64,000 nucleotides of DNA, taken from contig NZ_LT907842.1 of NCBI RefSeq assembly GCF_900215245.1, forward strand, positions 5,952,001-6,016,000, read 5' to 3'. Below the pieces are notes generated by a model. It worked only from the letters and a program-made list of their open reading frames with translations, was not told the DNA's origin and searched no databases. The number at the start of each line of letters is the position of its first letter. The stretch's first letter is position 1. The translations under genes were made by a program, and so were the position numbers. The DNA is from Pseudomonas fluorescens. GTDB lineage: Bacteria > Pseudomonadota > Gammaproteobacteria > Pseudomonadales > Pseudomonadaceae. Shown here piece after piece: positions 1-36,431 of the stretch.

Positions 1-7542
<7,542 letters not shown>

Positions 7543-7597
7543 TTCTTGGAGTCCGGAGCAATAGGCAGGAAGCACAAAGGCACGTCGTCCCTATAAA

Positions 7598-13239: not shown

Positions 13240-14283
13240 CTACCCCGCTGTTTTTTCTGTCCCGCCATGGGGCAACTGCCCCACCGGGCACTCGGCGACG
13301 CCCAGCGTGCTGCGGGTGATTTTCTCGACGTTCTCCTGGGCTTTTTGCGCGTCCAGCACCCAGGTGCGGTAGAACTCGAAGGGGCAGTCGGCCACCCCCT
13401 TGTCGCCATCGCCAGAGGCATGCATACCGGTGTAGCCACGGTGCAACAGCTTGAACAAGTGATTCTGCGACTGGTCGTTGGCCCGCGCATCACGGATCTG
13501 TGACACAGAAAGCTGGGCGTACTGAATGCCCATCTCTTCCTCGCCGCACTCGCCCAATGTGCGCCCATCAAAGCCGATGATCGCTGAGTGACCGAAGTAC
13601 GAATACACCCCGTCGAACCCTGCCGCATTCGCCACCGCCACGTAGCAGTTATTCGCCCAGGCCATGCTCTTGGACATCTGCACCTGCTGCTCCTTGGCCG
13701 GGTACATGTAGCCCTGGCAGCGCACGATCAATTCGGCGCCCTTCATCGCACAGTCGCGCCAGATCTCCGGGTAATTGCCGTCGTCGCAGATGATCAGGCT
13801 GATCTTCATGCCTTTGGGCCCCTCGCACACATAGGTGCGATCCCCCGGATACCAGCCTTCGATAGGGCACCAGGGAATGCACTTGCGGTAACGCTGCACG
13901 ATTTCGCCGAGGTTATTGATCAGCACCAAGGTGTTGTAAGGCGCCTTGCGGGGGTGTTCTTCGTGACGCTCACCGGTCAGGGAAAACACGCCCCACGTAT
14001 TGGCCTGACGGCACGCCGCCGAGAAAATCGCCGTCTCTTCGCCGGGAATACTCGCGGCGGTGGCCATCATCTCGTCGTGGTCGTACATGATGCCCATGGT
14101 GCTGTATTCCGGGAACACCACCAGGTCCATGCCTGGCAGGCCCTGCTTCATGCCGAGAATAATCTCGGCAATTTTCTGCGCGTTATCGATCACCTCGGCC
14201 TTGGCGTGCAGGCGCGGCATCTTGTAGTTCACCACCGCGACACCGACGGTGTCCGGGCTGCTGGAAATATCGCCATGACGCAT
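13240..14283 (-). CDS. amiE: Aliphatic amidase AmiE (EC 3.5.1.4)
   Basis: A 347-residue nitrilase-superfamily enzyme that hydrolyses short aliphatic amides (acetamide, propionamide) to acid and ammonia in the cytoplasm. The catalytic triad sits at the classic positions: E59 (VVFPEYS), K134 (RYRKCIPW) and C166 (LIICDDGN). The length is one residue longer than the P. aeruginosa enzyme as I remember it. It lies 15 bp after fmdB and 3 bp before amiB, so one operon fmdA-fmdB-amiE-amiB is likely. Unlike P. aeruginosa, no amiC, amiR or amiS follows. Confidence 0.95.
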
Positions 14284-14298: not shown

Positions 14299-14646
14299 CT
14301 AGTGACTGATCATCCACGGCCGTGGCCCGGTCCGGGTCTTGAGGCCCAACGGGTTAGCCTTACTCGGTTCCACCGGCTTGCTGGTACCGCAGCAGCTGCA
14401 ACCCGCGGGGTGCCGTCGGCTTTCCTGGTACTCACCGACGGTTTGCGGCGCGTGGGCGCTGCGTTCGTTGCCGGCGATCGCCTTGCGCTGGTTGGCCGAC
14501 AGGGTCTGCAACGCCGGCGCCGACACCCTCAGTTGCCCGCCCGGCCCGTCACAGTAGGGGCACTGGCTGGGTGCGTGGCGCTGGGCGATTGGCCGCAGCA
14601 GGGTGAACGTGCCGCACGCTGGACAAGCGTATTCGTAGGTCGGCAT
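14299..14646 (-). CDS. fmdB: FmdB-family zinc-ribbon protein
   Basis: A 115-residue protein. It starts MPTYEYACPACG and continues with CPYC, giving the CxxC...CxxC zinc ribbon typical of FmdB, described as a putative regulator in the formamidase operon of Methylophilus. A further CSCC motif lies in the C-terminal third, so a second metal site is possible. It starts 2 bp after the fmdA stop and is certainly cotranscribed. Its function in formamide and amide use is not established. Confidence 0.85.
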   Translation of the reverse strand: MPTYEYACPACGTFTLLRPIAQRHAPSQCPYCDGPGGQLRVSAPALQTLSANQRKAIAGNERSAHAPQTVGEYQESRRHPAGCSCCGTSKPVEPSKANPLGLKTRTGPRPWMISH

Positions 14647-14648: not shown

Positions 14649-15878
14649 CTACAGGTCCGGGGCGATGGGCAGATCGATACTGCCGTCGAGGAATTTCGTC
14701 GGCCCGTTGGCGTTGGGGTTGATGTCGAACTCGAAGATTTCCGTCGGCAACCACAAGGTGGCGCAAGCGTTTGGAATGTCCACCACGCCGCTGATGTGCC
14801 CCTGCACCGGCGCCGATCCGAGCAATGCGTAACCCTGGGCCGGCGAGTAGCCGAACTTGGTCAGGTAGTTGATCGCATTCAGGCAGGCCTGACGGTAGGC
14901 GACGTTGACGTCCAGGTAGTGCTGCTGGCCTTGCTCGTCCACCGAGATGCCTTCGAAGATCAGATAGTTCTTGTAGTTCGGAGTGATCGGGCTCGGTTTG
15001 AATACCGGGTTCTTGATCCCGTACTTGGCCATGCCGCCCTTGATCAGCTCGACTTTCATATGCACCCAGCCGGCCATTTCGATGGCGCCGCAAAAGGTGA
15101 TTTCGCCGTCGCCCTGGCTGAAGTGCAAGTCACCCACCGACAACCCGGCACCGTTGACATAGACCGGAAAGAAGATCTTCGAACCGCGGGACAAATCCTT
15201 GATATCGCAGTTACCGCCATGTTCACGCGGCGGCACTGTGCGTGCGCCGGTCGCAGCGGCGGCATCGCGCGCCGGGCCCTTGAGCTTGCCCATATGCGCG
15301 GTGGCCGCCAGCGGCGCATTCGCCAGCGGCGGCACGCGGGTCGGGTCGGTGTCGATCAATTGCTGCTCGCGGCGGTTCCAGTCGGCGAGCATCACCGGGT
15401 CGGGCAGGCACCCGATCAGGCCGGGATGGATCAGGCCGGCAAAGTTAACCCCCGGAATGTGCCGCGAGCTAGTGAACATGCCCTTGAAGTCCCAGATGGC
15501 TTTTTGCGCGCTGGGGAAATGATCGGTGAGGAAACCACCGCCGTTCTGCCGCGAGAAGAAACCGTTGAAGCCCCACTGCGAATCGGCCTTGGCGCCGATG
15601 TCGAGCAAGTCCACCACCAGCAGGTCGCCCGGCTCGGCGCCGTGCACACCCACCGGGCCGGAGAGGTAATGCACGGTGGACAGGTCCACATCACGCACAT
15701 CGCTGGCGTCGTCGTTGTTCTTGATCGCACCGGCGGTCCAGTCGTAGGTCTCCAGGATGAAGTCATCGCCGGGCTTGACCCAACAGGCCATCGGGATATC
15801 CGGGTGCCAGCGGTTATGGATATTTTCGTTTTCGGTGACAGGCTGGTTGAGGTCGACTTTGATCAGCGTTTCGGTCAT
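14649..15878 (-). CDS. fmdA: Formamidase/acetamidase FmdA
   Basis: A 409-residue enzyme of the FmdA/AmdA family, hydrolysing formamide or acetamide to the acid and ammonia. Family-typical segments include HNRWHPDIP, GPVGVHGAEPGDLLVVDLLDI and GDLHFSQGDGEITFCGAIE. Length fits the family. It heads the probable operon fmdA-fmdB-amiE-amiB, and its promoter carries TACGT-N6-ACGTA (15946-15963), shared with urtA. With AmiE it would release ammonia from amides imported by the neighbouring ABC transporter. Confidence 0.93.
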   Translation of the reverse strand: MTETLIKVDLNQPVTENENIHNRWHPDIPMACWVKPGDDFILETYDWTAGAIKNNDDASDVRDVDLSTVHYLSGPVGVHGAEPGDLLVVDLLDIGAKADSQWGFNGFFSRQNGGGFLTDHFPSAQKAIWDFKGMFTSSRHIPGVNFAGLIHPGLIGCLPDPVMLADWNRREQQLIDTDPTRVPPLANAPLAATAHMGKLKGPARDAAAATGARTVPPREHGGNCDIKDLSRGSKIFFPVYVNGAGLSVGDLHFSQGDGEITFCGAIEMAGWVHMKVELIKGGMAKYGIKNPVFKPSPITPNYKNYLIFEGISVDEQGQQHYLDVNVAYRQACLNAINYLTKFGYSPAQGYALLGSAPVQGHISGVVDIPNACATLWLPTEIFEFDINPNANGPTKFLDGSIDLPIAPDL

Positions 15879-15945: not shown

Positions 15946-15963
15946 ATACGTTGGATGACGTAT
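15946..15963. promoter_or_regulatory. Candidate response-regulator site upstream of fmdA
   Basis: Inverted repeat ATACGT (15946-15951), six bases, ACGTAT (15958-15963), ending 68 bp upstream of the fmdA start. The same architecture, TACGT-N6-ACGTA, occurs 80 bp upstream of urtA at 21065-21080. Inverted TAC-type half-sites are usual for NarL/LuxR-type response regulators, and such a regulator is encoded at 24646-25311. Confidence 0.65.
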
Positions 15964-16096: not shown

Positions 16097-16786
16097 TTAG
16101 ACGGACAGGTAGCGGCTGATGATCGCCTCGTCCACCCGATCCCGGGTTTCTTCGATCACGAAGCGGCCCTTTTCAATCACCAGGAATCGGTCGGCGATTT
16201 CCAGGGTGAACGACAACACCTGCTCGGACACCACAATGGTCAAGTCCCGCAGGTTGCGAATCTCTTTCAACGTGCGCGCAATGTCCTTGATGATCGACGG
16301 CTGAATCCCCTCCGTAGGCTCATCCAGCAACAACACCTTGGGGTTGGTCGCCAGCGCTCGCGCAATCGCCAACTGCTGTTGTTGCCCACCCGAGAGGTTG
16401 CCGCCTTTGCGCGACTGCATGTCATGCAACACCGGGAACAACGCATACAAGTCCTCTGGCACCCTGCCCCGCGCGGACGCCGGCAAACCGGTCTGGATAT
16501 TTTCCAGCACCGTCATGCTCGGGAAAATCATGCGCCCCTGGGGCACATAGGCGATACCGCGCGCCACCCGCTCGTGGGTTTCCAGCGCCGACACATCGTG
16601 CCCGTCCACGCTGACCTGGCCTTTCCACTGCGGCAGGATGCCCATCAGGCTTTTGAACAGGGTGGTCTTGCCCATGCCGTTGCGGCCCATCACCGCGACG
16701 ATTTCACGCTTGGCCACGTTCAGGTCCAGGTCGTGGAGGATCTGGCTCTGGCCGTAGCCGCAGGACAACTGGTCAATCTTGAACAT
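16097..16786 (-). CDS. urtE: Urea/short-chain amide ABC transporter ATPase, UrtE-like
   Basis: A 229-residue ABC ATPase of the branched-chain amino acid/urea importer type. It has Walker A GRNGMGKTT, signature LSGGQQQQ, and Walker B LLLDEPTEGIQP, whose 'EGIQP' is characteristic of the LivF/UrtE group. Start 16786 (MFKIDQLSCGYG) is preferred; the longer frame overlaps urtD. It is the last gene of urtABCDE, 10 bp after urtD. With the amidases next door, the substrate may be formamide, acetamide or similar amides (as FmdDEF) rather than urea. Confidence 0.88.
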   Translation of the reverse strand: MFKIDQLSCGYGQSQILHDLDLNVAKREIVAVMGRNGMGKTTLFKSLMGILPQWKGQVSVDGHDVSALETHERVARGIAYVPQGRMIFPSMTVLENIQTGLPASARGRVPEDLYALFPVLHDMQSRKGGNLSGGQQQQLAIARALATNPKVLLLDEPTEGIQPSIIKDIARTLKEIRNLRDLTIVVSEQVLSFTLEIADRFLVIEKGRFVIEETRDRVDEAIISRYLSV

Positions 16787-16796
16787 GCCGGATTCC

Positions 16797-17555
16797 TCAG
16801 TGGCCCAAATACACTTCGATAACTTTAGGGTTGTTTTGCACCGACTCCATGCTGCCCTCGGCCAGCACCTTGCCCTGGTGCAGCACCGTAACTTTGTGGG
16901 CAATGCTTTTGACGAATTCCATGTCGTGCTCGATCACCAGCACCGAACGCCCCTGGCTGATGCGTTTGAGCAGCTCGGCGGTTTGCGCGCGCTCGTTGAC
17001 GCTCATGCCCGCCACCGGCTCATCGAGCATCAACAACTCGGGGTCTTGCATCAGCAGCATGCCGATTTCCAGCCACTGCTTTTGCCCATGGGACAAGAGG
17101 TCGGCCTGTTGCTGCAGCAAATCGCCAAGGAAGATCTCCCGCGCCACCTCTTCCACCCGCGCGATCACTTGCGCGTTGCGCTTGAAAAACAGTGCGCCCC
17201 AAACCTTGCGGCCGGCGGGATAAGACATCTCAAGGTTCTCAAACACCGTGAGGTTTTCGTAGATCGACGGGTTCTGAAATTTACGCCCCACCCCAGCGCG
17301 CACAATGTTGTACTCGCGCATCCTGGTCAGTTCCTGGCCGTCAAACTGGATGCTGCCGCTGGTGGCGCGGGTCTTGCCGCAGATCAGGTCGAGCACGGTG
17401 GTTTTGCCGGCGCCATTGGGGCCGATCACCACGCGCACTTCGTTACGGTCGATATACAGGTTGAGGTTGTCGACCGCCTTGAAGCCGTCGAACGACACCG
17501 TGAGGCCTTCAATAGCCAGCACCGGTTTATTCATTTCAAAGCCGACGGCGGTCAT
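16797..17555 (-). CDS. urtD: Urea/short-chain amide ABC transporter ATPase, UrtD-like
   Basis: A 252-residue ABC ATPase of the LivG/UrtD type: Walker A GPNGAGKTT, signature LSHGQKQWLEIG, Walker B LLMLDEPVAGMS, and a switch histidine in VIEHDM. The start at 17555 (MTAVGFEMNK) overlaps the urtC stop (ATGA), showing translational coupling; MNKPVLAIEG at 17534 is an alternative. It pairs with UrtE to power import. Confidence 0.88.
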   Translation of the reverse strand: MTAVGFEMNKPVLAIEGLTVSFDGFKAVDNLNLYIDRNEVRVVIGPNGAGKTTVLDLICGKTRATSGSIQFDGQELTRMREYNIVRAGVGRKFQNPSIYENLTVFENLEMSYPAGRKVWGALFFKRNAQVIARVEEVAREIFLGDLLQQQADLLSHGQKQWLEIGMLLMQDPELLMLDEPVAGMSVNERAQTAELLKRISQGRSVLVIEHDMEFVKSIAHKVTVLHQGKVLAEGSMESVQNNPKVIEVYLGH

Positions 17556-18712
17556 GGCTGGGTCTCCAGGATTTTGCTTTCGGTCTTGGGTTTGGCCACG
17601 GCTGCGGCGGCTTTCACCACCGGTTTGCGCCGTAGCAATGTCGCCAGAGCCTGGCGTCCATGGCTCTCCCACAAACCGGCCAAACCGTTGGGAAAGTACA
17701 TGACCACGGCGATAAACAGCCCGCCCATCAGGTACAGCCACAGTTCCGGGAAGGACTCGGAAAAGTAGGTCTTGCCGTAGTTCACCAAGAGCGCGCCATA
17801 CACCGCGCCGAGCAACGACATGCGCCCGCCCACAGCAGCGAAGATCACCATCTCGATCGACGGCACGATGCCGACGAACGACGGCGACATAAAGCCCACC
17901 TGCAAGGCAAACATCGCCCCGCCAATCGCCGAGAACGCGGCAGCCACACAGAACACGAAGATCTTGAAGCTGGCCACGTCATAGCCGGAGAAGCGCACAC
18001 GCTCCTCTTTGTCGCGCATGGCCATCAGCAGCCGGCCGAGCTTGGACGCCAGAATGAAGCGGCCCATAAAGATGCAGCCGAACAGCAAACCGGCGTTGAT
18101 GAAATACAGGATCATTTTCGCGCTGTCGGTGCGCAGGTCCCAGCCGAGCAGGGTCTTGAGGTCGGTGATGCCGTTGACGCCGCCCGTCAGGCCTTGCTGG
18201 CCGACGATCAGCACCGTGAGGATCAGCGCAATCGCCTGGGTAACGATGGAAAAATACACATCGCCCACGCGGCGCTTGAACAGCGCCATGCCGATAATGA
18301 AGGCCAGCAGCACCGGCACCGCAATCACCGCCACCAGGGTAAAGCTGAAACTGTGGAACGGCTGCCACAGCCAAGGCAACTCGGTGATCTGGTTCCAGTC
18401 CATGAAGTCCGGAATGCCCGGCGTGGATTGGATCTTGGTGCTTTCGGGGTCCGAGGCTTCCAGCTTGAGGAACATCGCCATGCAGTAGCCACCCACTCCG
18501 AAGAACACGCCCTGCCCCAGGCTGAGAATCCCGCCATAGCCCCAGCACAGCACCAGCCCCACCGCGACGAACGCGTAGGTCAGGTACTTGCCGACCATGT
18601 TCAGGCGAAACGCATCCAGGGTCAGGGGAAATACCACCAGGATCAGCAGCGCCAACAGCACAATGCCGATCAGGTTTTGCTGGCCGCCCAGCAGCTTGTC
18701 TAAAGCCTTCAT
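17552..18712 (-). CDS. urtC: Urea/short-chain amide ABC transporter permease, UrtC-like
   Basis: A 386-residue LivM/UrtC-type permease with about 9-10 hydrophobic segments. Typical features are GYGGILSLGQGVFFGVGGY and the GGxxGL...TDLKTLLGWD loop. The C-terminal tail is basic and Ala/Val-rich (about 355-386). It follows urtB by 10 bp and overlaps urtD. It forms the heterodimeric membrane channel with UrtB. Confidence 0.9.
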   Translation of the reverse strand: MKALDKLLGGQQNLIGIVLLALLILVVFPLTLDAFRLNMVGKYLTYAFVAVGLVLCWGYGGILSLGQGVFFGVGGYCMAMFLKLEASDPESTKIQSTPGIPDFMDWNQITELPWLWQPFHSFSFTLVAVIAVPVLLAFIIGMALFKRRVGDVYFSIVTQAIALILTVLIVGQQGLTGGVNGITDLKTLLGWDLRTDSAKMILYFINAGLLFGCIFMGRFILASKLGRLLMAMRDKEERVRFSGYDVASFKIFVFCVAAAFSAIGGAMFALQVGFMSPSFVGIVPSIEMVIFAAVGGRMSLLGAVYGALLVNYGKTYFSESFPELWLYLMGGLFIAVVMYFPNGLAGLWESHGRQALATLLRRKPVVKAAAAVAKPKTESKILETQP

Positions 18713-18722: not shown

Positions 18723-19640
18723 CTACTTGCGCACTTTGATGGAGAACAACCCTTGCGGGCGCAGCATCAGGATCAGAATCACCGACGACAAGGTCAGCAC
18801 CTTGGCCATCGAGCCACTGAGGAAAAACTCCGACAGCGATTGGGTCTGGGCAATCACGAACGCCGAGGCGATGGTGCCGAACAGGCTTTGCGCGCCGCCG
18901 AACACCACCACCAGGAAGGTATCGACGATGTACTGCGAACCCGCCGTCGGCCCGGTGGAACCGATGGTGGTGAAGGCCGCGCCCGCCACACCGGCGACGC
19001 CGCAGCCGAGGGCGAATGTCATACGGTCGACCTTGCGCGTATTGATGCCCACGGCGCGGCTCATCAGGCGGTTCTGTACCGTGGCGCGCACCTGCAAGCC
19101 CCAGCGCGAGCGGTACAGCATGAGGAAGATCGCGGCGGTCAGCAGCAAGGTCAGGCCCATCATGAACAGGCCGTTGCGCGGGATTTCGATGGCGTCGGTG
19201 AAGTTCACCGAGCCCATCAGCCAGGCCGGTGGTTCGGCGCTGACTTCACGGGCGCCAAACACCGAACGGAAGGTTTGCTGCATCACCAGCGACAAGCCCC
19301 ACGTGGCGAGCAAGGTGTCCAGCGGCCGCTTGTACAAACGGCTGATCATCGCCCACTCCACCAGCCAGCCGACGGCGCCGGCGACGAGGAATGACAGGGC
19401 GATGGCGAAGAAGAAGTAATAGGGTTGGAAGCTCGGCGCAAAGTGTGCGGTGAGGCTGGAGCACACGTAGGTGGTGTAGGCGCCGATGGTCAGGAATTCA
19501 CCGTGAGCCATGTTGATCACGCCCATCTGGCCAAAGATGATTGCCAGCCCCAATGCCATCAGCAACAGCACGCAGAACACGGACAGGCCGTTGAACCCCT
19601 GCATTGCCGCGATGGCCCCAAATTCCGATAGCCATTCCAT
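18723..19640 (-). CDS. urtB: Urea/short-chain amide ABC transporter permease, UrtB-like
   Basis: A 305-residue LivH/UrtB-type permease with about 8 membrane segments. Signature stretches are GLAIIFGQMGVINMAHGEFL and NRLMSRAVGINTRKVD. Start 19640 (MEWLSEFGAI) is used; the longer frame runs back through the hairpin at 19691-19735. It lacks the long N-terminal exported domain of true urea UrtB proteins, which favours an Fmd-type amide importer. It lies 136 bp downstream of urtA, across the hairpin. Confidence 0.88.
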   Translation of the reverse strand: MEWLSEFGAIAAMQGFNGLSVFCVLLLMALGLAIIFGQMGVINMAHGEFLTIGAYTTYVCSSLTAHFAPSFQPYYFFFAIALSFLVAGAVGWLVEWAMISRLYKRPLDTLLATWGLSLVMQQTFRSVFGAREVSAEPPAWLMGSVNFTDAIEIPRNGLFMMGLTLLLTAAIFLMLYRSRWGLQVRATVQNRLMSRAVGINTRKVDRMTFALGCGVAGVAGAAFTTIGSTGPTAGSQYIVDTFLVVVFGGAQSLFGTIASAFVIAQTQSLSEFFLSGSMAKVLTLSSVILILMLRPQGLFSIKVRK

Positions 19641-19690
19641 GATGATGGTCTCCTGAGCGGGAGGTTGAGATGCATTCTGCTGTTGATTTA

Positions 19691-19735
19691 TGTGGAAGCT
19701 GGCTGGCCTGCGATGCAGGCCAGCCAGCTCCCACA
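19691..19735. repeat. Strong hairpin (REP-like) between urtA and urtB
   Basis: Perfect 15-bp stem (19697-19711 with 19715-19729) closed by a GAT loop and flanked by TGTGGA and TCCCACA. It is a compacted relative of the local REP sequences. Sitting in the urtA-urtB gap without a T-run, it may stabilise the urtA mRNA or limit read-through, giving more binding protein than permease. Confidence 0.75.
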
Positions 19736-19776
19736 TAAAGCCAGTTGCCACAGTTGGATCAGTGCCGGCCCCGGTG

Positions 19777-20985
19777 TTATTGATAGCCTTTGGGGAACGG
19801 GTTCGGCTCAATCAGATCCGACTCGTAGATCACTTTGAACTGGCCGTTGGGCTGCACTTCACCGATACGCGACTTGCTCCACAGGTGATGGTTCTCGTGG
19901 ATCTTCACGTAGCCTTCCGGCGCGGTTTTCAGCTCGATGCCCGGCGAGGCGGCCACGACTTTATCCACGTCGAAACTGCCGGCCTTCTCCACCGCGGCTT
20001 TCCACAACCATGGGCCGAGGTAGGCCGCCTGGGTCACGTCGCCGATCACCGCATCCTTGCCGTACTTGGCCTTGAAGGCTTCGACGAAGGCTTTGTTGTT
20101 GGGGTTGTCCAGGCTCTGGAAGTACTTCATCGAGGCGTAGAAACCGGCCATGTTTTCGCCGCCAATGCCGAGCAATTCATCCTCGGTCACCGACAGGGTC
20201 AGCAAGGTTTGCTTGGCGGCGTTCACACCCGCCGCATTCAGTTGTTTGTAGAACGCCACGTTGGAACCACCGACCACGGCCGCGAACACCACGTCCGGTT
20301 TCTTCAGCTTGACCTTGTTGATCAGCGAGCCGAACTGGGTATTGCCCAGCGGGTAGTAATCTTCGCCGACCACGGTGCCGTGCAGTACGTTTTCGATGTG
20401 CTTGCGCGCGATCTTCATCGAGGTGCGCGGCCAGATGTAGTCCGAGCCGACCAGGTAGAACGTCTTGGCACCTTTGGTCTTGGCGATCCAGTCGAGGCTG
20501 GCGAGGATTTGCTGGGTAGCTTCCTGGCCGGTGTAGATCACGTTTTTCGACTGTTCCAGGCCTTCATAGAAGGTCGGGTAGTAGAGCAAGCCGTTTTCTT
20601 TCTCGAAGATCGGCAGCACGGCTTTGCGCGAAGCCGAGGTCCAGCAGCCGAATACGGCGGCGACTTTATCGTTGACCAGCAGCTTCTTGGCTTTTTCAGC
20701 GAAGGTCGGCCAGTCGGAGGCGCCGTCTTCCTGGATGACCTTGATCTGCCGTCCCAGAATCCCGCCTGAGGCGTTGATCTGCTCGATAGCCAGACGCTCG
20801 GCCTGAATCGAGCCGGTTTCGGAAATCGCCATGGTGCCGGTGGCCGAGTGCAACTGGCCGACGGTCACTTCGGTAGGGGTCACGGCCAGGCCTTCGTTAT
20901 CAGCCAGCACGCCCTGGCTGAACAGCGCGGCCGCCAGCAATGACAAGGCCAAGAGGGGTTTGGAGCGGATCAATCGTGGTGCCAT
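19777..20985 (-). CDS. urtA: Urea/short-chain amide ABC transporter substrate-binding protein, UrtA-like
   Basis: A 402-residue periplasmic binding protein of the Urt/Fmd type. The start at 20985 gives a signal peptide (MAPRLIRSK, hydrophobic core LLALSLLAAALF, likely cleavage after GVLA). Family segments include VGQLHSATGTMAISETG, IEQINASGGILGR and YYPTFYEGLEQSKNVIYTG. It is the first gene of urtABCDE, with the TACGT-N6-ACGTA site 80 bp upstream. The ligand is inferred from context (fmdA, amiE) to be a short amide or urea. Confidence 0.9.
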   Translation of the reverse strand: MAPRLIRSKPLLALSLLAAALFSQGVLADNEGLAVTPTEVTVGQLHSATGTMAISETGSIQAERLAIEQINASGGILGRQIKVIQEDGASDWPTFAEKAKKLLVNDKVAAVFGCWTSASRKAVLPIFEKENGLLYYPTFYEGLEQSKNVIYTGQEATQQILASLDWIAKTKGAKTFYLVGSDYIWPRTSMKIARKHIENVLHGTVVGEDYYPLGNTQFGSLINKVKLKKPDVVFAAVVGGSNVAFYKQLNAAGVNAAKQTLLTLSVTEDELLGIGGENMAGFYASMKYFQSLDNPNNKAFVEAFKAKYGKDAVIGDVTQAAYLGPWLWKAAVEKAGSFDVDKVVAASPGIELKTAPEGYVKIHENHHLWSKSRIGEVQPNGQFKVIYESDLIEPNPFPKGYQ

Positions 20986-21051
20986 GGGGCGACTCCTCTG
21001 CAATGAGGGTTCCAGCATGGCGGCAGCGCGCCAGCGCGGGTATACGCAGCC

Positions 21052-21081
21052 TGACGTAACGGTGTACGTCATTTGACGTAT
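21052..21081. promoter_or_regulatory. Candidate response-regulator sites upstream of urtA
   Basis: TACGTCA and TGACGTA face each other across two bases (21065-21080), equivalent to TACGT-N6-ACGTA as at fmdA. A third half-site, TGACGTAA, lies at 21052-21059. The cluster starts 67 bp upstream of the urtA start codon, in the gap to the divergent sensor kinase gene. Confidence 0.65.
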
Positions 21082-21287: not shown

Positions 21288-24200
21288 GTGCACCCCACCC
21301 CTGGCACTCAGCGCATCGTCAAGATCCGCCGCGACTACAACACCTGGGTCGCCGACGAGACCATGGAAGACTATGCTCTGCGCTACACGCCAAAATCCTT
21401 TCGCAAATGGTCGGAACTGCGCATCGCCAACACCGCCCTGGGCGCCGTGTCGTTCCTGGCGCTGGAAGCCATCGGCGGTGTCCTGGCCTTGAGTTACGGC
21501 TTCACCAACACCTTTTGGGCGATCCTCGCGATCAGCCTGGTGATCTTCCTCACCGGCCTGCCCATCAGCTATTACGCGGCGCGTTACGGCGTGGACATGG
21601 ACCTGCTGACCCGCGGCGCCGGCTTCGGCTACATCGGCTCAACCATCACCTCGCTGATCTACGCCAGCTTCACCTTCCTGTTCTTCGCCCTGGAAGCGGC
21701 GATCATGGCCCTGGCGCTGGAGTTGTATTTTCATATCCCGTTGGCCATCGCCTATGTCATTTGCTCGCTGCTGGTGATTCCGCTGGTGGCCTACGGCGTC
21801 ACCCTGATCAGCCGCCTGCAACTGTGGACGCAACCGGTCTGGCTGCTGTTGCTGGTGCTGCCCTACGGCTTCGTGTGGTGGAAGAACCCCGATGCCTTCA
21901 GCGACTGGACCAGTTTCGTCGGGCGCAGTGGCGACGGCGGTGGTTTCAACCTGTTGGCGTTCTGCGCCGCCTGCACGGTGGCGCTGTCGCTGGTGACGCA
22001 GATTGGCGAACAGGTCGACTACCTGCGCTTTCTGCCGGAAAAAACCGCCGCCAACCGCAAACGCTGGTGGGCCGCGCTGCTCTGTGCCGGGCCCGGCTGG
22101 ATCATCCCCGGGGCGTTAAAAATGTTCGCGGGCGCCTTCCTGGCCTTCCTTGCCCTGCAACATGAAATCCCCATGGAACGCGCCGCCGAGCCGACCCAGA
22201 TGTACCTCGTCGCGTTCCGCTACGTGTTCAGCTCGCCGGAATGGGCGCTCGGCGCGATGGTGCTGTTCGTGTTCATCTCCCAGATGAAGATCAACCTGAC
22301 CAACGCTTACGCCGGCTCCCTGGCCTGGTCGAACTTCTTCGCCCGCGTGACCCACAGCCATCCCGGCCGGGTGGTGTGGCTGGTGTTCAACGTGGCGATT
22401 GCACTGATGCTGATGGAGCTCGGCGTGTTCGATGTCATCGACCAGGTGCTGGGGCTCTACGCCAATATTGCGATTGCCTGGATCGGCACGCTGGTGGCCG
22501 ACCTGGTCATCAACAAGCCCTTGGGCCTGTCGCCCCAACACATCGAGTTCAAGCGCGCCCACCTCTATGACATCAACCCGGTGGGCGTCGGCTCAATGCT
22601 GATCGCTTCATTGCTTTCGATCCTCGCCCACTTCGGTGTGCTCGGCGCACTCGCCCAGGCCGCGCCGCCGTTCGTCGCGCTGGGCACTGCGCTGATCATG
22701 GCGCCGCTGTTGGCCTGGCTGACCCGAGGCAAGTACTACATCGCCCGCACCAGTGATGTCCAACTGATTCATCCGGTGGCGCCTGCCACCCACGCGGTCT
22801 GCGGCCTGTGCAGCAACCCGTTCGAAACCGCCGACATGGCGTTCTGCCCGGCCTACAGCACGCCCATCTGCTCACTGTGCTGCTCGCTGGATGCTCGTTG
22901 CGGTGATCGCTGCAAGCCCCACGCCCGGCTGGTCAGCCAGTTTGAAAGCGCATTGCGCTGGCTGTTGCCGAACACGTTGATGCCCCGCCTGCATACCCGG
23001 CTGGCACATTATCTGGGGTTGTTATTGGTTCTGGTGCTGCTGCTCGCGGGGGCCCTGGCTCTGATCTACGTTCAGGCTGCCCAGGGGCTGCCGCATTCAG
23101 AGACGCTGTATCAGGCGTTCTTCAAGGCGTTTCTCACGCTCTCGGTACTCGCTGCCGTACTCGCCTGGTGGGTGGTGCTGACCCGCGAAAGCCGGCGTGT
23201 CGCCCAGGAAGAATCCGACCGCCAGACCCTGCTTTTGATGCAGGAAATCGACGCCCACAGCCTCACCGACCAAGCCCTGCAACAGGCCAAGGAAGCCTCC
23301 GAAGCGGCAAATGCCGCCAAGAGCCGCTACGTCACCGGGCTGTCCCACGAACTGCGCACGCCGCTCAACAGCATCCTCGGTTTTACCCAAATACTGCAGC
23401 GCGACAACGCTATGCCCGAGCAGCATCAGGACGCCCTGGCGACCATCCTGCGCAGCGGCTCGCACCTGTTGTCGCTGATCGACGGCCTGCTCGACGTGGC
23501 CAAGATCGAGGCCGGCAAGCTGCGCCTGGAACTCACCGAAATCCCCTTCCCGGAGCTGATTCACGACCTGGAGCAGATGTTTACTCCGCAGGCGCAGGAC
23601 AAGGGCCTGCGCTTTCGCCTCGACTGCGTGGGCAAGATCCCGGCCGTGGTGCGTGGCGATGAAAAGCGCGTGCGGCAGATCCTGATCAACCTGCTGGGCA
23701 ACGCGGTGAATTTTACCGACAGCGGTGAGGTGTGCCTGCGGGTCAGCTACATGCGCGAGACCGCCAATTTTGAAATCATCGACACCGGCATCGGGATTGA
23801 TCCGGAGCAGATCGAACGGATTTTCCAGCCGTTCGAACGCGGCGATTTAATGCGCCAGGACAAGGGCGTGGGCCTCGGGCTGACCATCACACGCATGCTC
23901 ACCTCGTTAATGGGCGGTGAACTGCGGGTCTCCAGCGAACTCGACAAGGGCACGTGCTTCCAGGTGCGGCTGTTTCTTTCCCAGGTGCGCGCGCCGCAAG
24001 CGGTGGTGCATGTGGAGCACGACATCATCGGCTATCAGGGTGAGCGCCGACGCATCCTGGTGGTGGACGACCACGTCGACCATCGCAAGATGCTGAGCGG
24101 CATGCTCACCCCTTTGGGTTTTGAAGTGATCCAGGCCAGTAACGGCCAGGAGGCGATTCGCCAGGTGGCGTTGCTGGCACCGGACTTGATCCTGATGGAC

Positions 24201-24671
24201 TTGTCGATGCCGACGTTGGATGGCTTGGAAACCAGCCGTTTGATCCGCCGCAACGCGCTGTCCAGCGCGCCGATTATTGTGATCTCGGCCAACGCCTTTA
24301 CCGACGACCGCGAACGCAGCATCGCCGCCGCCTGCAATGACTACCTGGCCAAGCCGGTGCGCACCCCGGAGCTGCTGGGGCGCCTGCAACAGCATCTGCA
24401 GTTGCAGTGGTTACGCCGCACCAAGACCTCCAGGGCGCCGGCGCCGCCCAGGGTCCTGCCCAGCCCTGAAGACCTCGCCGCGCTCGCCGAACTCAGCGCC
24501 ATCGGCTATGTGCGCGGCCTACACGACAAACTCGACAAGATCCTTGAACACCGCCCGGACACTGAAGCATTCATCAGCAAAGTGCGCGGTTTGCTCAAGG
24601 GTTTCCGCCTGGATGAACTCAACCGAACCCTCAAGGAGGCCGAAGATGAATGCACTCACCCGCAGCACTGA
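21288..24671 (+). CDS. NCS1-type permease fused to hybrid sensor histidine kinase
   Basis: A 1127-residue membrane sensor. Residues about 15-500 resemble an NCS1 (cytosine/purine/hydantoin-type) permease with about 12 membrane segments (DETMEDYALRYTPKSFRKW, then TRGAGFGYIGSTITSLIYA). A cysteine-rich box (about 505-545, CGLC...C...CSLCC...CGDRC, zinc-ribbon-like) follows, then two more membrane helices, a HisKA domain with H687 (LSHELRTPLNS), a HATPase domain (NLLGNAVNF near 800) and a receiver domain with phosphoacceptor near D971 (MDLSMPTLDG). GTG 21288 after CGGAG is chosen; an upstream ATG lies in a REPIN. It is divergent from urtA and overlaps its response regulator, so it probably senses an amide or related compound by transport-like binding. 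This parallels CbrA and MxtR/CrbS, which use an SSS-type transporter domain. Confidence 0.88.
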   Translation: MHPTPGTQRIVKIRRDYNTWVADETMEDYALRYTPKSFRKWSELRIANTALGAVSFLALEAIGGVLALSYGFTNTFWAILAISLVIFLTGLPISYYAARYGVDMDLLTRGAGFGYIGSTITSLIYASFTFLFFALEAAIMALALELYFHIPLAIAYVICSLLVIPLVAYGVTLISRLQLWTQPVWLLLLVLPYGFVWWKNPDAFSDWTSFVGRSGDGGGFNLLAFCAACTVALSLVTQIGEQVDYLRFLPEKTAANRKRWWAALLCAGPGWIIPGALKMFAGAFLAFLALQHEIPMERAAEPTQMYLVAFRYVFSSPEWALGAMVLFVFISQMKINLTNAYAGSLAWSNFFARVTHSHPGRVVWLVFNVAIALMLMELGVFDVIDQVLGLYANIAIAWIGTLVADLVINKPLGLSPQHIEFKRAHLYDINPVGVGSMLIASLLSILAHFGVLGALAQAAPPFVALGTALIMAPLLAWLTRGKYYIARTSDVQLIHPVAPATHAVCGLCSNPFETADMAFCPAYSTPICSLCCSLDARCGDRCKPHARLVSQFESALRWLLPNTLMPRLHTRLAHYLGLLLVLVLLLAGALALIYVQAAQGLPHSETLYQAFFKAFLTLSVLAAVLAWWVVLTRESRRVAQEESDRQTLLLMQEIDAHSLTDQALQQAKEASEAANAAKSRYVTGLSHELRTPLNSILGFTQILQRDNAMPEQHQDALATILRSGSHLLSLIDGLLDVAKIEAGKLRLELTEIPFPELIHDLEQMFTPQAQDKGLRFRLDCVGKIPAVVRGDEKRVRQILINLLGNAVNFTDSGEVCLRVSYMRETANFEIIDTGIGIDPEQIERIFQPFERGDLMRQDKGVGLGLTITRMLTSLMGGELRVSSELDKGTCFQVRLFLSQVRAPQAVVHVEHDIIGYQGERRRILVVDDHVDHRKMLSGMLTPLGFEVIQASNGQEAIRQVALLAPDLILMDLSMPTLDGLETSRLIRRNALSSAPIIVISANAFTDDRERSIAAACNDYLAKPVRTPELLGRLQQHLQLQWLRRTKTSRAPAPPRVLPSPEDLAALAELSAIGYVRGLHDKLDKILEHRPDTEAFISKVRGLLKGFRLDELNRTLKEAEDECTHPQH

Positions 24672-25311
24672 ACCCGGCGTGGTGCTGATCGTCGACGACA
24701 CCCCGGACAACCTCGCCATGCTCTCCGATGCACTCGACGACGCCGGCTACATGGTGCTGGTCGCCCTCGACGGCCTCAGCGCACTGAACCGCGTGCAACG
24801 ACGGCGCCCGGACCTGATCCTGCTGGACGCGATGATGCCCGGCCTGGATGGCTTCGAAACCTGCCGGCGGCTCAAGGCGCAGCCCGCCAGCGCCGACATC
24901 CCGGTGGTGTTCATGACCGGGCTGACCGACAGCAAGCATGTGGTGCAGGGCTTTGAAGTGGGCGGCAGCGACTATGTGACCAAGCCGATCCAGACCGACG
25001 AAGTATTGGCACGGGTGGCAGCGCATTTGCGCACCTCACGCATCTTGCTCTCGGCACGGGCGGCGACGCAGCCGAGTGTGCTGACCCTGGAAGACGCGCC
25101 GGCGCAGCGGCTGTTGTCGGCCAGGTTCCAACTGACCGAGCGCGAGGTGGAAGTGCTGCGCTGGGTGGCGTGCGGCAAGACCAATCGGGATATCGGCGAT
25201 ATTTTGGGGTTGAGCCCCAGGACGGTGAACAAGCACCTGGAGCATGTGTACGTGAAGTTGGGTGTGGAGACTCGCACGGCCGCGACGTCCGTGGCCCTGG
25301 CGGCGATCTGA
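24646..25311 (+). CDS. LuxR/NarL-type response regulator
   Basis: A 221-residue regulator with a receiver domain (VLIVDDTPDN; phosphoacceptor D61 in LILLDAMMP; conserved lysine in DYVTKPI) and a C-terminal LuxR helix-turn-helix (LTEREVEVLRWVACGKTNRD, SPRTVNKHLEHVYVKLG). ATG 24646 lies inside the kinase gene, overlapping its end by 26 bp, so the two are coupled partners. It is the best candidate to bind the TACGT-N6-ACGTA sites upstream of urtA and fmdA. Confidence 0.92.
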   Translation: MNALTRSTEPGVVLIVDDTPDNLAMLSDALDDAGYMVLVALDGLSALNRVQRRRPDLILLDAMMPGLDGFETCRRLKAQPASADIPVVFMTGLTDSKHVVQGFEVGGSDYVTKPIQTDEVLARVAAHLRTSRILLSARAATQPSVLTLEDAPAQRLLSARFQLTEREVEVLRWVACGKTNRDIGDILGLSPRTVNKHLEHVYVKLGVETRTAATSVALAAI

Positions 25312-25431: not shown

Positions 25432-26262
25432 TTACCCACCGAAGGTCTGCGACGGCCTGCGCAGGGTCGGATCAAACGGGTTGATCCTCGGCCCAATCGC
25501 CGCCGCTTCGCGCTTGAGCAACTCAACCACCATTGGCAAGCGGCTCGGCCCCAACCGATCACTGATGGTCGCCACACTCAGCGCCGCCACCGCATGCCCG
25601 TCCCGATTCAGAATCGGCACCGCCACCCCCGCCATGCCTTCCAACACCCCGGTATTGCGCGCTGCATAGCCCAGGCGCCGTACGTTCTCGACCTCCGAGC
25701 GCAGCAGCACTTCGTCATACAGGTGAAAGTCCTTGAGGCGTGGCAGGTTGTAGCGAATCACCGTCTCACGCTCTTCCTCCGGCAAGAACGCCAGAATCGC
25801 CAAGCTGCCCTGCCCCACGCCCAACGCCACGCGCCCACCGATATCGCCGGTAAACGTACGGATCGGATAGGGCCCCTCGCTGCGGTCCAGGCAGATCGCA
25901 TCAAAGCCGCTGCGCGCGAGCAGGAACAGCGAATCGCCGAGGGAAGCACTCAGGCGCAACATGCTCGGCCGTACCAGGTCGCGCAGGTTGCCGGTCTTGC
26001 CCGCGTTGGCTGCCAGCGCGAAAAACTCCAGGCTCAGGCGATAGCGTTTGCTGCGTGCGTCCTGCTCGACCATGCCTTCGTCCATCAGGCTGCGCAGCAG
26101 GCGGTGGGTGGTGGGTTGGGACAAGCCGACCTGTTGCGCGAGTTGGGTCACACGTTCGCCGCCTTCCGGCACCTCGCCCAAGGTGCGCAGCAGCGCGAAC
26201 AGCCGAGACACGCCGCCCGCACCGACTTCTCTACTTGCTTCATTCCGCTCAGTGGAATCCAT
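25432..26262 (-). CDS. IclR-family transcriptional regulator
   Basis: A 276-residue regulator. The N-terminal winged helix-turn-helix (about 15-75) includes RLFALLRTLGEVPEG and LSQPTTHRLLRSLMDEGMVEQ; the C-terminal IclR effector domain (about 90-265) includes GVLEGMAGVAVPILNRDGHAVAALSVA. The start is ambiguous between 26262 (MDSTERNEAS, chosen) and 26280. It is divergent from the ABC transporter and oxidase operon at 26505-32943, which it probably controls in response to the substrate or a metabolite. Confidence 0.88.
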   Translation of the reverse strand: MDSTERNEASREVGAGGVSRLFALLRTLGEVPEGGERVTQLAQQVGLSQPTTHRLLRSLMDEGMVEQDARSKRYRLSLEFFALAANAGKTGNLRDLVRPSMLRLSASLGDSLFLLARSGFDAICLDRSEGPYPIRTFTGDIGGRVALGVGQGSLAILAFLPEEERETVIRYNLPRLKDFHLYDEVLLRSEVENVRRLGYAARNTGVLEGMAGVAVPILNRDGHAVAALSVATISDRLGPSRLPMVVELLKREAAAIGPRINPFDPTLRRPSQTFGG

Positions 26263-26504
26263 AAGGCTAAACCCAGGCATAAATTCTAGTGAATGAATAA
26301 AACTGAAAATAATAGTCCATTCAGTGAAATTCCATCTTCCGCCCATCCTAGTCTTCGTCCTAATCTGCGTCCACAGGGGCGAAATGAACAACAAATGGCA
26401 GCCGACTCGAGATCGAGCGCCAACGCACCCGCAACACTCTTTTCGCATCTGCCCAAAACAAAAAAGCGCGTTTCGACGCGACTCAAAAAAGGTGGAACGC
26501 AGAC
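26263..26504. promoter_or_regulatory. Divergent promoter region of the IclR regulator and ABC/oxidase operon
   Basis: A non-coding gap of about 240 bp. It is AT-rich at 26281-26335 and contains the near-palindrome TTCAGTGAA (26323-26331). A related TCAGTGGAAT lies over the iclR start (26250-26259). These are possible regulator half-sites, but no clear -35/-10 pair or long palindrome was found. Confidence 0.35.
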
Positions 26505-27533
26505 ATGGCATTTCTCCAACTCAACGCCTTGAGCAAACGCTACGGCGCCGTCGACGCGGTGGTCGCTACCGACCTTGCGGTGGAAAAAGGCGAGTTCGTT
26601 TCCCTGCTCGGCCCCTCGGGATGCGGCAAGACCACCACCCTGCAAATGATCGCCGGTTTCGTCGACGTGAGCGGCGGGCAGATTCTGCTCGACGGGCGTG
26701 ACATCACCCACGCTAAGCCCGCCAGCCGTGGCCTGGGTGTGGTGTTCCAAAGCTACGCGCTGTTCCCGCACATGACCGTGCGCGACAACGTCGCCTTCGG
26801 CCTGAAGATGCGCAAAGTGCCGGTCGCCGAGATCGCCAGCAAAGTCAAAACCGTGCTCGAACTGGTGCGCCTGGCGCCCCACGCCGAGCGCTACCCGCGT
26901 GAACTGTCCGGCGGCCAACGCCAGCGTGTGGCCCTGGCCCGCGCCTTGGTGATCGAGCCGCCGGTGTTGCTGCTCGACGAACCGCTGTCCAACCTTGACG
27001 CCAACTTGCGCGAAGAAATGCAGTTTGAAATTCGCCGCATCCAGTGCGCCGTGGGCATCACCACCTTGATGGTCACCCACGACCAGGCCGAAGCGCTGTC
27101 CATCAGCGACCGCGTGGTGGTGATGCAGGCCGGGCGCGTGACCCAGATCGACGCGCCGTACAACCTGTATGAGCACCCGCGCACGCGCTTCATCTCGGAT
27201 TTTGTCGGCAAAGCCAACCTGCTGCCGGGCGACTATGACGAACTCGGCGCCCCCCAGGTGCGTTGCATCAGCGGCGCAGGTGAACTGACCCTGAGCCTGC
27301 GCCCGGAAAAAATCACCCTGGTGGACGCCGGCGCCGGGCGCGTGCAAGGCAAGGTCCTCGACAGTTACTTCTTCGGCAGCCAATGGCTGTACCGCGTCCA
27401 TACCCCTCTGGGTGAAATCACCGTGGTGCGCAGCAACGACGGCAGCGCGCCGCTCGCTTGCGGCGCGGCGGTGGGCCTGGACTGGCACGCCGGCCTGCTG
27501 CGCGTGTTGGCGGCGGATGAGGTGCGCGCATGA
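26505..27533 (+). CDS. PotA-like ABC transporter ATPase
   Basis: A 342-residue ATPase of the spermidine/putrescine (POPT) importer family. Walker A is GPSGCGKTT, the Q-loop FQSYALFPHMT, the signature LSGGQRQRVALARAL, Walker B VLLLDEPLSNLD, and the H-loop VTHDQAEAL. A C-terminal TOBE-like domain follows (about 240-340). It is the first gene of a seven-gene operon and its stop overlaps the next start (ATGA). It energises uptake by the two permeases and the binding protein at 31912. Confidence 0.92.
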   Translation: MAFLQLNALSKRYGAVDAVVATDLAVEKGEFVSLLGPSGCGKTTTLQMIAGFVDVSGGQILLDGRDITHAKPASRGLGVVFQSYALFPHMTVRDNVAFGLKMRKVPVAEIASKVKTVLELVRLAPHAERYPRELSGGQRQRVALARALVIEPPVLLLDEPLSNLDANLREEMQFEIRRIQCAVGITTLMVTHDQAEALSISDRVVVMQAGRVTQIDAPYNLYEHPRTRFISDFVGKANLLPGDYDELGAPQVRCISGAGELTLSLRPEKITLVDAGAGRVQGKVLDSYFFGSQWLYRVHTPLGEITVVRSNDGSAPLACGAAVGLDWHAGLLRVLAADEVRA

Positions 27534-28375
27534 GTCGGGGTTATGTGTTGTCGTTACCGGCCCTGGTGCTGTTTACCGGGCTGTTGATCCTGCCGCTGCT
27601 GATGACGCTGGTGCTGTCGTTCAACGTGTTCGACTACCAGGTCGGCGTGAAGGCCGATGAGTGGACCTTCGCGCATTACCTGTCGCTGTTCAGTGACTCG
27701 TACTTTTACGAGATCTTCTGGCGCACCTTCTGGATCAGTGCCTTGGTGACCTTGTTGTGCGTGGTCATCGGCGTGCCCGAGGCCTACATCCTCAGCCGCA
27801 TGGGCACCCCGTGGCGCTCGATCTTCCTGATCCTGATCCTCACGCCGCTGTTGATTTCGGTGGTGGTGCGCGCCTTCGGCTGGAGCCTGCTGCTCGGTGC
27901 CGACGGGCTGGTGAACCAGGTGATCCAGGCGCTCGGCGGGCGCCCGGTGAAACTGCTGTATACGCCGTTTGCGGTGATCATCGCGCTGGTGCACGTGATG
28001 CTGCCGTTCATGATCATTCCGGTGTGGACCTCGCTGCAAAAGCTCGACCCGTCGGCCGAACAGGCCGCCCTGTCGCTGGGTGCGAGCCAGGCCACGGTCA
28101 TGCGCAAGATCGTGTTGCCGCAGGTCATGCCCGGCGTGCTCTCGGGCACCCTGATCGTGTTCGGCCTGGCCGCCAGTTCGTTTGCGATCCCCGGCCTGCT
28201 TGGCGGGCGCCGCCTGAAAATGGTCGCCACCGTGGTGTATGACCAGTACCTCTCGGAACTCAACTGGCCCATGGGCGCGACCATCGCGGTGGTGCTGCTG
28301 TTGGTCAATCTGCTGATCATGCTGAGCTGGAACCGCATGGTCGAAAGCCGCTACAAAAAGTCCCTGGGGGTTTAA
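27530..28375 (+). CDS. PotB-like ABC transporter permease
   Basis: A 281-residue inner-membrane permease with six hydrophobic segments and the EAA-type loop near residues 180-200 (KLDPSAEQAALSLGASQAT...PQVMPG). It overlaps the ATPase gene by 4 bp and precedes the second permease by 4 bp. It forms the channel with the next gene product. Confidence 0.9.
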   Translation: MSRGYVLSLPALVLFTGLLILPLLMTLVLSFNVFDYQVGVKADEWTFAHYLSLFSDSYFYEIFWRTFWISALVTLLCVVIGVPEAYILSRMGTPWRSIFLILILTPLLISVVVRAFGWSLLLGADGLVNQVIQALGGRPVKLLYTPFAVIIALVHVMLPFMIIPVWTSLQKLDPSAEQAALSLGASQATVMRKIVLPQVMPGVLSGTLIVFGLAASSFAIPGLLGGRRLKMVATVVYDQYLSELNWPMGATIAVVLLLVNLLIMLSWNRMVESRYKKSLGV

Positions 28376-28379
28376 GCGC

Positions 28380-29174
28380 ATGTCCAGAAACGGTCCTTTG
28401 GCCCTGGGTTTCCACGGTTTGGTGGTGCTGTTCATGATGGCGCCGCTGGTGGTGGTGTGCCTGGTGGCCTTCACCCCCGAAAACACCTTGAGCCTGCCGA
28501 CGTCGGGCTTCTCCCTGCGCTGGTTTCGCGCGGTGTTCGAGCGTGCCGACTTCATCCAGGCGTTCTATAACAGCCTGATCCTGGCGTTTACCGCCGCGAC
28601 CCTGGCCACACTGATCGCAGTGCCGGCGGCCTTGGCGATCAGCCGATATCAATTCCCGGGGCGCAATTTTTTCAGTGCGCTGTTCCTGTCGCCGATCATC
28701 ATCCCGCACCTGGTGCTGGGGGTGGCGATGCTGCGGCTGTTTGCCTTGATGGGCGTGAATGGCAGCTTCACCTGGCTGATGCTCGCCCACGTGGTGATCA
28801 TCACGCCGTATGTGCTGCGCCTGGTGCTGGCCGCGGCGATCGGCATTGATCGCAGTGCCGAGCAGGCGGCGGAGTCGCTGGGTGCGAGCCGCTTTACGCT
28901 GTTTCGTCAGATTACCTTGCCGATGATTTTGCCCGGTGTAGCCGGCGGCTGGTTGCTGGCGTTTATCAACAGCTTCGATGAAGTGACCCTGTCGATCTTC
29001 GTCAGCTCGCCGGCCACGCAAACCTTGCCGGTGCGCATGTACGTGTACGCCACGGAGTCCATCGACCCAATGATGGCGGCAGTCTCGGCGCTGGTGATTG
29101 CGCTGACCGCAGCGACCATGATCCTGCTCGACCGGGTCTACGGCCTGGACCGCGTGCTGGTGGGGAAACATTGA
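28380..29174 (+). CDS. PotC-like ABC transporter permease
   Basis: A 264-residue permease with six hydrophobic segments and an EAA loop (IDRSAEQAAESLGASRFT...LPMILPG). It is the partner of the preceding permease. Its stop overlaps the ATG of the iron-sulfur subunit gene (TGATG), which ties transport to oxidation. Confidence 0.9.
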   Translation: MSRNGPLALGFHGLVVLFMMAPLVVVCLVAFTPENTLSLPTSGFSLRWFRAVFERADFIQAFYNSLILAFTAATLATLIAVPAALAISRYQFPGRNFFSALFLSPIIIPHLVLGVAMLRLFALMGVNGSFTWLMLAHVVIITPYVLRLVLAAAIGIDRSAEQAAESLGASRFTLFRQITLPMILPGVAGGWLLAFINSFDEVTLSIFVSSPATQTLPVRMYVYATESIDPMMAAVSALVIALTAATMILLDRVYGLDRVLVGKH

Positions 29175-31898: not shown

Positions 31899-31911
31899 GA
31901 GGAAAAACCCA

Positions 31912-35626: not shown

Positions 35627-35637
35627 GGTGGTTCTCC

Positions 35638-36285: not shown

Positions 36286-36311
36286 GGCAGTTCTCCTGTG
36301 GCCTGTAAACA

Positions 36312-36332
36312 AAAGTACACGTCGTGTACTTT
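36312..36332. promoter_or_regulatory. Probable NrtR operator
   Basis: A perfect 21-bp palindrome: AAAGTACACG (36312-36321), a central T, and its exact reverse complement (36323-36332). It sits between pncA and the divergent nrtR gene, 27 bp from the pncA start. NrtR is known to repress NAD genes through such palindromes and to be released by ADP-ribose. Confidence 0.85.
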
Positions 36333-36431
36333 CATTGCAAGAAACATTTATTTAACTAGGCTTGATTCAGTACATGACATGGCTGTTCGATGGGTTAGAC
36401 TGTGCTCCACCGCTGCCTACAAGGATTTCAC

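Follow-up and report, generated by a model that had tools for sequence, protein, structure and literature searches.

The window analysed here, a 64,000-nucleotide stretch of the Pseudomonas fluorescens genome (contig NZ_LT907842.1, positions 5,952,001 to 6,016,000), carries on its forward strand a gene for a hybrid sensor kinase of 1127 residues (21288..24671, numbered within the window; start codon GTG) and, overlapping its end by 26 bp, a gene for a LuxR/NarL-type response regulator (24646..25311, same strand) with its own ribosome site, AAGGAGG. Reading from its N-terminus, the sensor joins an NCS1-like permease domain (residues 26-490; 21363..22757), a box of eight cysteines (the 8-Cys box, residues 505-542; 22800..22913), two additional hydrophobic helices (residues 571-632; 22998..23183) that lead into the kinase coiled coil, HisKA (23316..23516), HATPase_c (23655..23978), a receiver domain (24054..24386) and a small C-terminal part. 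Pfam matches and alignment identify a hybrid histidine kinase: the phospho-acceptor H687 and the receiver residue D971 are His and Asp in 57/57 representatives, counted, like the identity medians below, without two loci carrying another kinase type (L168 and L177), and with a partial gene (L179) left out of the representatives. The regulator has the receiver and GerE domains (both Pfam) of the NarL/FixJ group. The first-pass annotation, which described one permease-kinase-receiver fusion with a Cys-rich box at about 505-545, two extra helices and a 26-bp overlap with a LuxR-type regulator, was thus accurate on each of these features. The C-terminal part (about 1048-1114) was considered as a histidine phosphotransfer (Hpt) domain and rejected, no well-kept His being present in aligned relatives.

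The fusion is recurrent. Among 398 sampled Pseudomonadota genomes, 52 carry the sensor (the window's own counted), and 56 fused loci beyond that of the window have permease identities of 55-86%; G236, a fragment of 55 residues, was dropped from this search, as were 13 weak matches with 23-30% identity (L180 among them). These 56 loci rule out an assembly artefact, which the first-pass annotation had named as a case that would refute the fusion. No second copy was found in the sensor's own genome at E<=10. When 43 diverged representatives are compared with L049, a close relative of the window, median identity is 63% in the permease, 66% in the Cys box and 53% in the kinase core, and 39% in the receiver and 35% in residues 546-640. 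Judging from the names and sequences of search matches, Cyanobacteria also possess related proteins with kinase parts. Since L168, L177 and a Paracoccus locus (L184) carry a clearly different, shorter kinase with no receiver in frame, fusion of the sensor module has involved more than one kinase. In a plasmid collection, 342 Klebsiella records match the permease; those listed are of the fused kind by identity and annotation, and at least two others (H85, H86) are unfused. The Klebsiella gene has matches in 6 of 5426 complete Escherichia coli genomes.

The permease domain is an NCS1 protein by fold and profile comparison, in agreement with the NCS1-like assignment first proposed for it. Its predicted structure fits the NCS1 variant of the LeuT fold, with a break in the first transmembrane helix (TM1) at residues 53-57, and its best structural matches in the PDB are CodB and Mhp1 (15-17% identity in the structural alignments). 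Comparison with an NCS1 profile by hhalign gave a probability of 98 and an E value of 1.3e-13 over 387 columns, while L180, an intermediate sequence 30% identical to the permease, itself passes the Pfam model PF02133. The CodB model NF008241 matched at E 3.9e-7, far below the model cut-off. The assignment rests on fold and profile because sequence searches of the PDB, with a single sequence (E<=1) or a profile (E<=10), and Pfam found nothing: the Transp_cyt_pur domain that the first-pass annotation proposed to look for (PF02133) does not match at E<=10, the sensor is not among the eight PF02133 places found in its own genome, and the NCS1 domain is thus invisible to Pfam. The PF02133 gathering score is a detection limit rather than a biological feature.

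Divergent from the sensor, on the reverse strand, lie genes putatively encoding the import and hydrolysis of amides or urea. They comprise a urtA-type substrate-binding protein (19777..20985; TIGR03407), a urtB-type permease open frame (18723..19811; start uncertain), urtC (17552..18712; TIGR03408), open frames for urtD (16797..17741; TIGR03411) and a urtE-type protein (16097..16903; ABC_tran), in both of which the true start is probably inside the frame, the formamidase gene fmdA (14649..15878; NF045496), a gene for an fmdB-like zinc-ribbon protein (14299..14646; Zn_ribbon_8) and the aliphatic amidase gene amiE (13240..14283; NF009802). UrtA, UrtC, UrtD, FmdA and AmiE pass the curated NCBIfam cut-offs of these models.

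This partnership, noted at the locus by the first-pass annotation, extends to most other genomes with the fusion. For each of the 56 loci, the surrounding sequence, up to 20 kb, was screened for 15 proteins, namely the sensor, the regulator and 13 metabolic markers; this is the survey of fusions beside fmdA and amiE that had been proposed. Genes for Urt, fmdA, amiE or urease occur within about 20 kb of the sensor in 54/56 loci, and the two loci without markers (L149, L179) are cut off by contig ends; in control stretches from the same genomes, 0/20 had any of the 15 proteins above the same score thresholds. The regulator is downstream on the same strand in 54/56 loci. Of the 45 sampled loci with a urtA gene, 42 have it divergent from the sensor and within 3 kb. 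From the side of the metabolic genes, the sensor is present in 39/40 genomes with a close fmdA versus 13/358 others (Fisher p 1.4e-41, not corrected for kinship). The 80 nearest relatives in another collection all have such genes, though they are mostly Pseudomonas and so not independent, and nine of ten plasmid loci with the fused gene have markers and one has none. Two kinds of locus can be distinguished: one combines fmdA/amiE with a window-like Urt, and the other, the urea kind, has urease, a more distant Urt (about 40% identity) or both. One locus of each kind is present in four genomes (G246, G379, G225, G158). Placing these labels on the tree (44 amide, 15 urea rows) needs at least five changes, so retargeting between amide and urea loci probably happened several times.

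Unfused relatives of the sensor permease, about 46% identical to it, show similar associations. We read eight such loci, chosen from 18 listed as unfused or likely unfused, all of them plasmid-collection records; in 6/8 the permease stands beside urease, formamidase or amidase genes. The partners are urease in Acinetobacter and Klebsiella, fmdA in Moraxella and Tsukamurella, an aliphatic amidase in Arthrobacter U41, and fmdA with an amidase nearby in Methylovirgula, where the unfused permease also adjoins a fused sensor and regulator. No urease, formamidase or amidase gene was found close by in the Streptomyces and Arthrobacter NicSoilB11 loci. When an Arthrobacter permease was used as the query, many of the best 120 of 4821 matches were actinobacterial. 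The Methylovirgula sp. HY1 plasmid (L217:1257-7590) has fused sensor, regulator, unfused permease with an 8-Cys box, formamidase and aliphatic amidase in one cluster. On a Klebsiella pneumoniae record (L212:5956-7563), the urease genes are followed by a gene named 'cytosine permease'; it is a relative of the sensor permease without a kinase fusion, and its product may be a urea transporter.

Alternatively, the signal could be a nucleobase, allantoin or hydantoin. Such compounds are the usual substrates of NCS1 proteins, and urea or ammonia is released when they are broken down. The solved NCS1 relatives carry cytosine or hydantoins, according to their PDB entry titles, and unfused relatives are named allantoin or cytosine permease in databases. 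Those names were given by similarity, however, and the genes beside the sensor (54/56 loci) and beside its unfused relatives point to urea and amides. No purine, allantoin or hydantoin gene appeared in the annotated stretches that were read, which were not searched systematically for such genes. We therefore regard a signal of this class as unlikely.

Four permease positions appear to differentiate fused from unfused proteins. In LeuT-fold proteins, substrate and sodium are bound at the TM1/TM8 region. Positions 55 and 56 of the sensor are inside the predicted TM1 helix break, position 60 is just after it, and position 342 is in TM8. Among 146 fused rows (143 distinct, three being the same sequence taken twice), F56 and E60 are each present in 145 (one gap) and A342 in all 146, while S55 is present in 139 (Ala in five, Thr in one, one gap) and in no unfused row. 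The unfused rows instead have A55, Y56, F60 (Q in Methylovirgula) and S342, in 8/8 loci and in all 120 listed Arthrobacter-query matches, which are the best 120 of 4821 and close kin of each other. A further TM8 position, T338, is Thr in all 40 amide-type representatives; Ala or Met stands there in nine fused rows, each from a locus with the distant, urea-type Urt. Aligning TM8 residue by residue with Mhp1 and its substrate Asn was ambiguous by one gap, and hence no such correspondence is claimed.

The tree suggests when these substitutions arose. A bootstrapped tree of 40 rows was built with the four signature columns removed and the long-branch rows L184 and L185 left out, the remaining unfused permeases serving as the root. 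The Methylovirgula permease comes out in this tree as sister to all sensors (100/99) and carries no sensor residue at any of the four positions (A55, Y56, Q60, S342). The TM1/TM8 changes and the kinase fusion may therefore share one branch, a placement that is suggestive only, as it depends on a single intermediate sequence. An earlier quick tree, in which this permease (one row only) grouped among ten unfused ones, was set aside for the bootstrapped tree.

These residues bear on whether the permease domain still transports, with the kinase reading transport flux as in a transceptor like CbrA. Such a role is a serious possibility, albeit one to which we give clearly less than an even chance. 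Much of the permease core has been kept, with 59 of the 85 positions invariant in the compared sensors identical in all seven unfused permeases compared, and CbrA, a fusion of an SSS transporter to a kinase, is reported in the consulted part of PMC7918813 to transport histidine. However, the residues that are fixed (F56, E60 and A342, gaps apart) or nearly fixed (S55) in fused proteins are absent from the unfused ones compared, and the Methylovirgula locus retains an unfused permease in addition to its sensor. These observations leave room for transport by the sensor itself.

The 8-Cys box may represent an element that couples permease to kinase. None of the 146 fused rows lacks any of the eight Cys. 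The unfused permeases of Acinetobacter, Klebsiella and Moraxella keep C505, C508, C528 and C531, that of Streptomyces keeps these and C520, and that of Methylovirgula has all eight, whereas C-x2-C occurs in the last 90 residues of 0/120 listed actinobacterial proteins. From this pattern, one four-Cys site is probably older, with C520, C532, C538 and C542 forming a second, later site. The structure model of the isolated box is modest (predicted local distance difference test, pLDDT, 70; predicted template modelling score, pTM, 0.44), and its best Foldseek matches include RING, PHD and FYVE domains, none significant (best RING, E 0.3). Pfam Prok-RING_1 matches weakly in 9/55 members (best E 0.0097). 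The box is thus a probable double metal site with a RING/FYVE/treble-clef-like fold at low confidence; our guess is a double-zinc treble-clef domain, and an iron-sulphur cluster site is possible.

The strict conservation of the cysteines raises the alternative that what the sensor reads is not a solute but redox state or a metal, through the box, or else general nitrogen status; in line with this, ubiquinone is reported to inhibit MxtR phosphorylation in vitro (PMC7918813, in the part consulted). Yet the box is not tied to the kinase, since several unfused permeases have four of the Cys and that of Methylovirgula eight, and conservation is higher in the permease than in the kinase core (median identities of 63% and 53%). 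We consider a redox, metal or nitrogen-status signal very unlikely.

A conserved palindrome between urtA and the sensor provides a candidate target for the regulator. The predicted primary operator is a perfect 7-2-7 palindrome, TACGTCA-TT-TGACGTA (21065..21080), and 22 bp from it is a second, weaker 7-2-7 site with three mismatches (21043..21058) that is also found in Pseudomonas relatives; a further predicted operator, with two mismatches, is located 69 bp before fmdA (15947..15962). TACGTCA is the commonest 7-mer of 50 dereplicated intergenic regions, the window's included (33/50; shuffle maximum 20). TACGTCA-N2-TGACGTA at <=2 mismatches occurs in 31/50 of these regions (99/126 before dereplication), with no occurrence in five shuffle rounds or in 398,020 control bases. 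The palindrome is the best-kept block in ten aligned regions of the Pseudomonas family, whose DNA is otherwise poorly alignable, and the 6.5-Mb genome holds only one perfect copy, at 21065-21080. NarL-family regulators bind 7-2-7 inverted repeats of TAC-type heptamers (the NarL/NarP rule), and the layout of the predicted operator fits this rule. The regulator is therefore predicted to be linked through the palindrome to the urtA promoter and, in a smaller set of species, to fmdA as well. A motif shared by the urease-linked intergenic regions showed only a weak excess (5/7 versus at most 4 in shuffles). A sigma-54-like site upstream of urtA (one mismatch, at 20999) was taken as chance, since sites at <=1 mismatch occur in 2/118 regions, and scanning both promoter regions with simple sigma-70 patterns gave no match. 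One Klebsiella michiganensis plasmid that was read (L183) has urtABCDE, formamidase and a one-mismatch version of the operator before urtA.

The architecture, the NCS1 homology, the recurrent gene partnership, the conserved palindromes and the TM1/TM8 residues, three fixed and one near-fixed, lead us to propose, with a probability of roughly 0.70, that the sensor is a receptor derived from an NCS1-fold amide/urea permease and that it switches on its own uptake and hydrolysis regulon. A short-chain amide or urea would bind the TM1/TM8 pocket of the permease, and the resulting conformational change could pass through the putatively metal-binding 8-Cys box, the two extra helices and the coiled coil to the HisKA/HATPase kinase. 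Phosphate would be handed to the internal receiver and on to the NarL-type regulator encoded beside the sensor, which would bind the tandem 7-2-7 sites between urtA and the sensor and the one before fmdA. Transcription of urtABCDE and fmdA-fmdB(-amiE) would then increase, leading to uptake and hydrolysis of the compound by the cell. The first-pass annotation had suggested sensing of amides or urea, an idea strengthened by the gene partnership (54/56 loci), the genomes with fmdA (39/40) and the palindrome; the ligand itself (formamide, acetamide or urea) is something we infer.

Several observations weigh against this proposal. It is built on sequence and gene context, from which the ligand, the direction of control, the phosphate route, the metal content of the box and the loss or retention of transport by the sensor are inferred. 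No Hpt domain was found for a route from the internal receiver to the regulator, and PF02133 does not recognise the permease. The palindrome at <=2 mismatches is missing from 19/50 regions, including all seven that are ureA-divergent and several from alphaproteobacteria, and no site was found before amiE (0/57) or ureA (0/15). Genome-wide, matches at <=2 mismatches number nine versus 11 for a reversed control pattern, i.e. there is no excess. The site upstream of fmdA occurs in 42/101 loci and, after dereplication, in 9/41, in Pseudomonas and its order, and a Tistrella mobilis plasmid (L005; sensor from 11953) has only sensor and regulator, with no urt, fmdA, amiE or urease marker in 24 kb. 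Because of these last two results we lowered our estimate slightly, from 0.72.

More broadly, the sensor may belong to an unrecognised NCS1 family of urea and short-chain amide permeases, whose unfused members occur in Actinomycetota, Acinetobacter and Moraxella and close a urease cluster in Klebsiella. One branch of this family, which already had an 8-Cys tail binding two metals, could have become a dedicated receptor upon kinase fusion, with F56, E60, A342 and mostly S55 trading transport for signalling and the RING-like metal box serving as the coupling; the module would also have been combined with at least one other, clearly different kinase and been re-targeted several times between amide and urease loci. 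We hold this wider scenario tentatively, at somewhat less than even odds.

Other parts of the window hold further genes. A large non-ribosomal peptide synthetase with condensation, AMP-binding and carrier domains lies partly within 1-7575 on the reverse strand and runs off the window. An IclR-type regulator gene (25432-26511) adjoins a group (26505-32943) of ABC importer genes resembling 2-aminoethylphosphonate systems (below cut-offs) and two oxidoreductases like sarcosine/glycine oxidase. An NAD salvage group (34409-37124) includes a nicotinate phosphoribosyltransferase that passes its model and, matching below cut-offs, a nicotinamidase-like protein and an NrtR-like regulator. At 41562-43570, a Tsx nucleoside channel that passes its model is next to a protein without an NCBIfam name at E<=1e-15.

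If the proposal is correct, bacteria possess a dedicated receptor for formamide, acetamide or urea, which would also occur in Cyanobacteria and on Klebsiella plasmids; the local regulator of this nitrogen pathway is unnamed in the open-licence PMC papers searched. It would add a substrate class, amides and urea, that none of the solved NCS1 transporters considered here is known to carry, and possibly a new metal-binding coupling element. Since fused and unfused versions of the same permease exist, side by side in Methylovirgula, which changes turn a transporter into a receptor is directly testable, and the operator and the paired unfused permeases make the system unusually so.

Among known systems, CodB and Mhp1 are NCS1 transporters that, unlike the sensor, have no kinase. 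An aliphatic amidase operon is controlled in response to amides by AmiC-AmiR, which is not a two-component system but a soluble ligand-binding protein and an RNA-binding antiterminator. AmiC-AmiR, an amide sensor of amidase operons in the consulted part of PMC13209695, resembles the proposed system in its amide-responsive control of such an operon. Closer in design are the established SSS transporter-kinase fusions CbrA, MxtR/CrbS and PrlS (PMC7918813, PMC5715377, PMC13022988) and RpuS (PMC9100948). As described in the excerpts consulted, these SSS/SLC5-STAC kinases likewise have a LeuT-fold transporter at the N-terminus and a kinase at the C-terminus, and CrbS/MxtR and PrlS, like this sensor, are hybrid kinases paired with LuxR-type regulators. 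The present sensor appears to differ in having an NCS1 domain instead of SSS and, in the place of STAC and PAS, an 8-Cys box with two extra helices; its neighbours are amide/urea genes. No STAC match was found between permease and kinase by Pfam, where the presence of a STAC model was not checked. The ACTU motif examples given for CrbR in those excerpts (e.g. TACTACCATCGTCGAAT) are unlike TACGTCA-N2-TGACGTA. Ks-Amt5, an ammonium transporter-kinase fusion of an anammox bacterium (PMC5764959), is similarly a nitrogen-compound transporter turned kinase receptor, with transport reported lost and a binding site gained; the same excerpts describe an Amt/Rh fold, a trimer and DHp and CA domains only, and mention no Cys box, all unlike the sensor. 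No paper on a kinase with an NCS1 sensor, or on a urea or amide sensor kinase, was found among the matches listed in searches of open-licence PMC papers, and the word NCS1 is absent from the consulted texts of PMC11109136, PMC13022988, PMC5764959, PMC7918813 and PMC5715377. The first-pass view of an NCS1 version as much less familiar thus agrees with the papers searched, whereas in sequence databases the fusion is not rare. Transporter-kinase fusions are an established kind, of which the NCS1 variant is new to judge from the open-licence PMC papers searched; also new here are the predicted regulator site, the unfused relatives beside amide and urea genes, and the TM1/TM8 substitutions that appear to fall on the branch of the kinase fusion.

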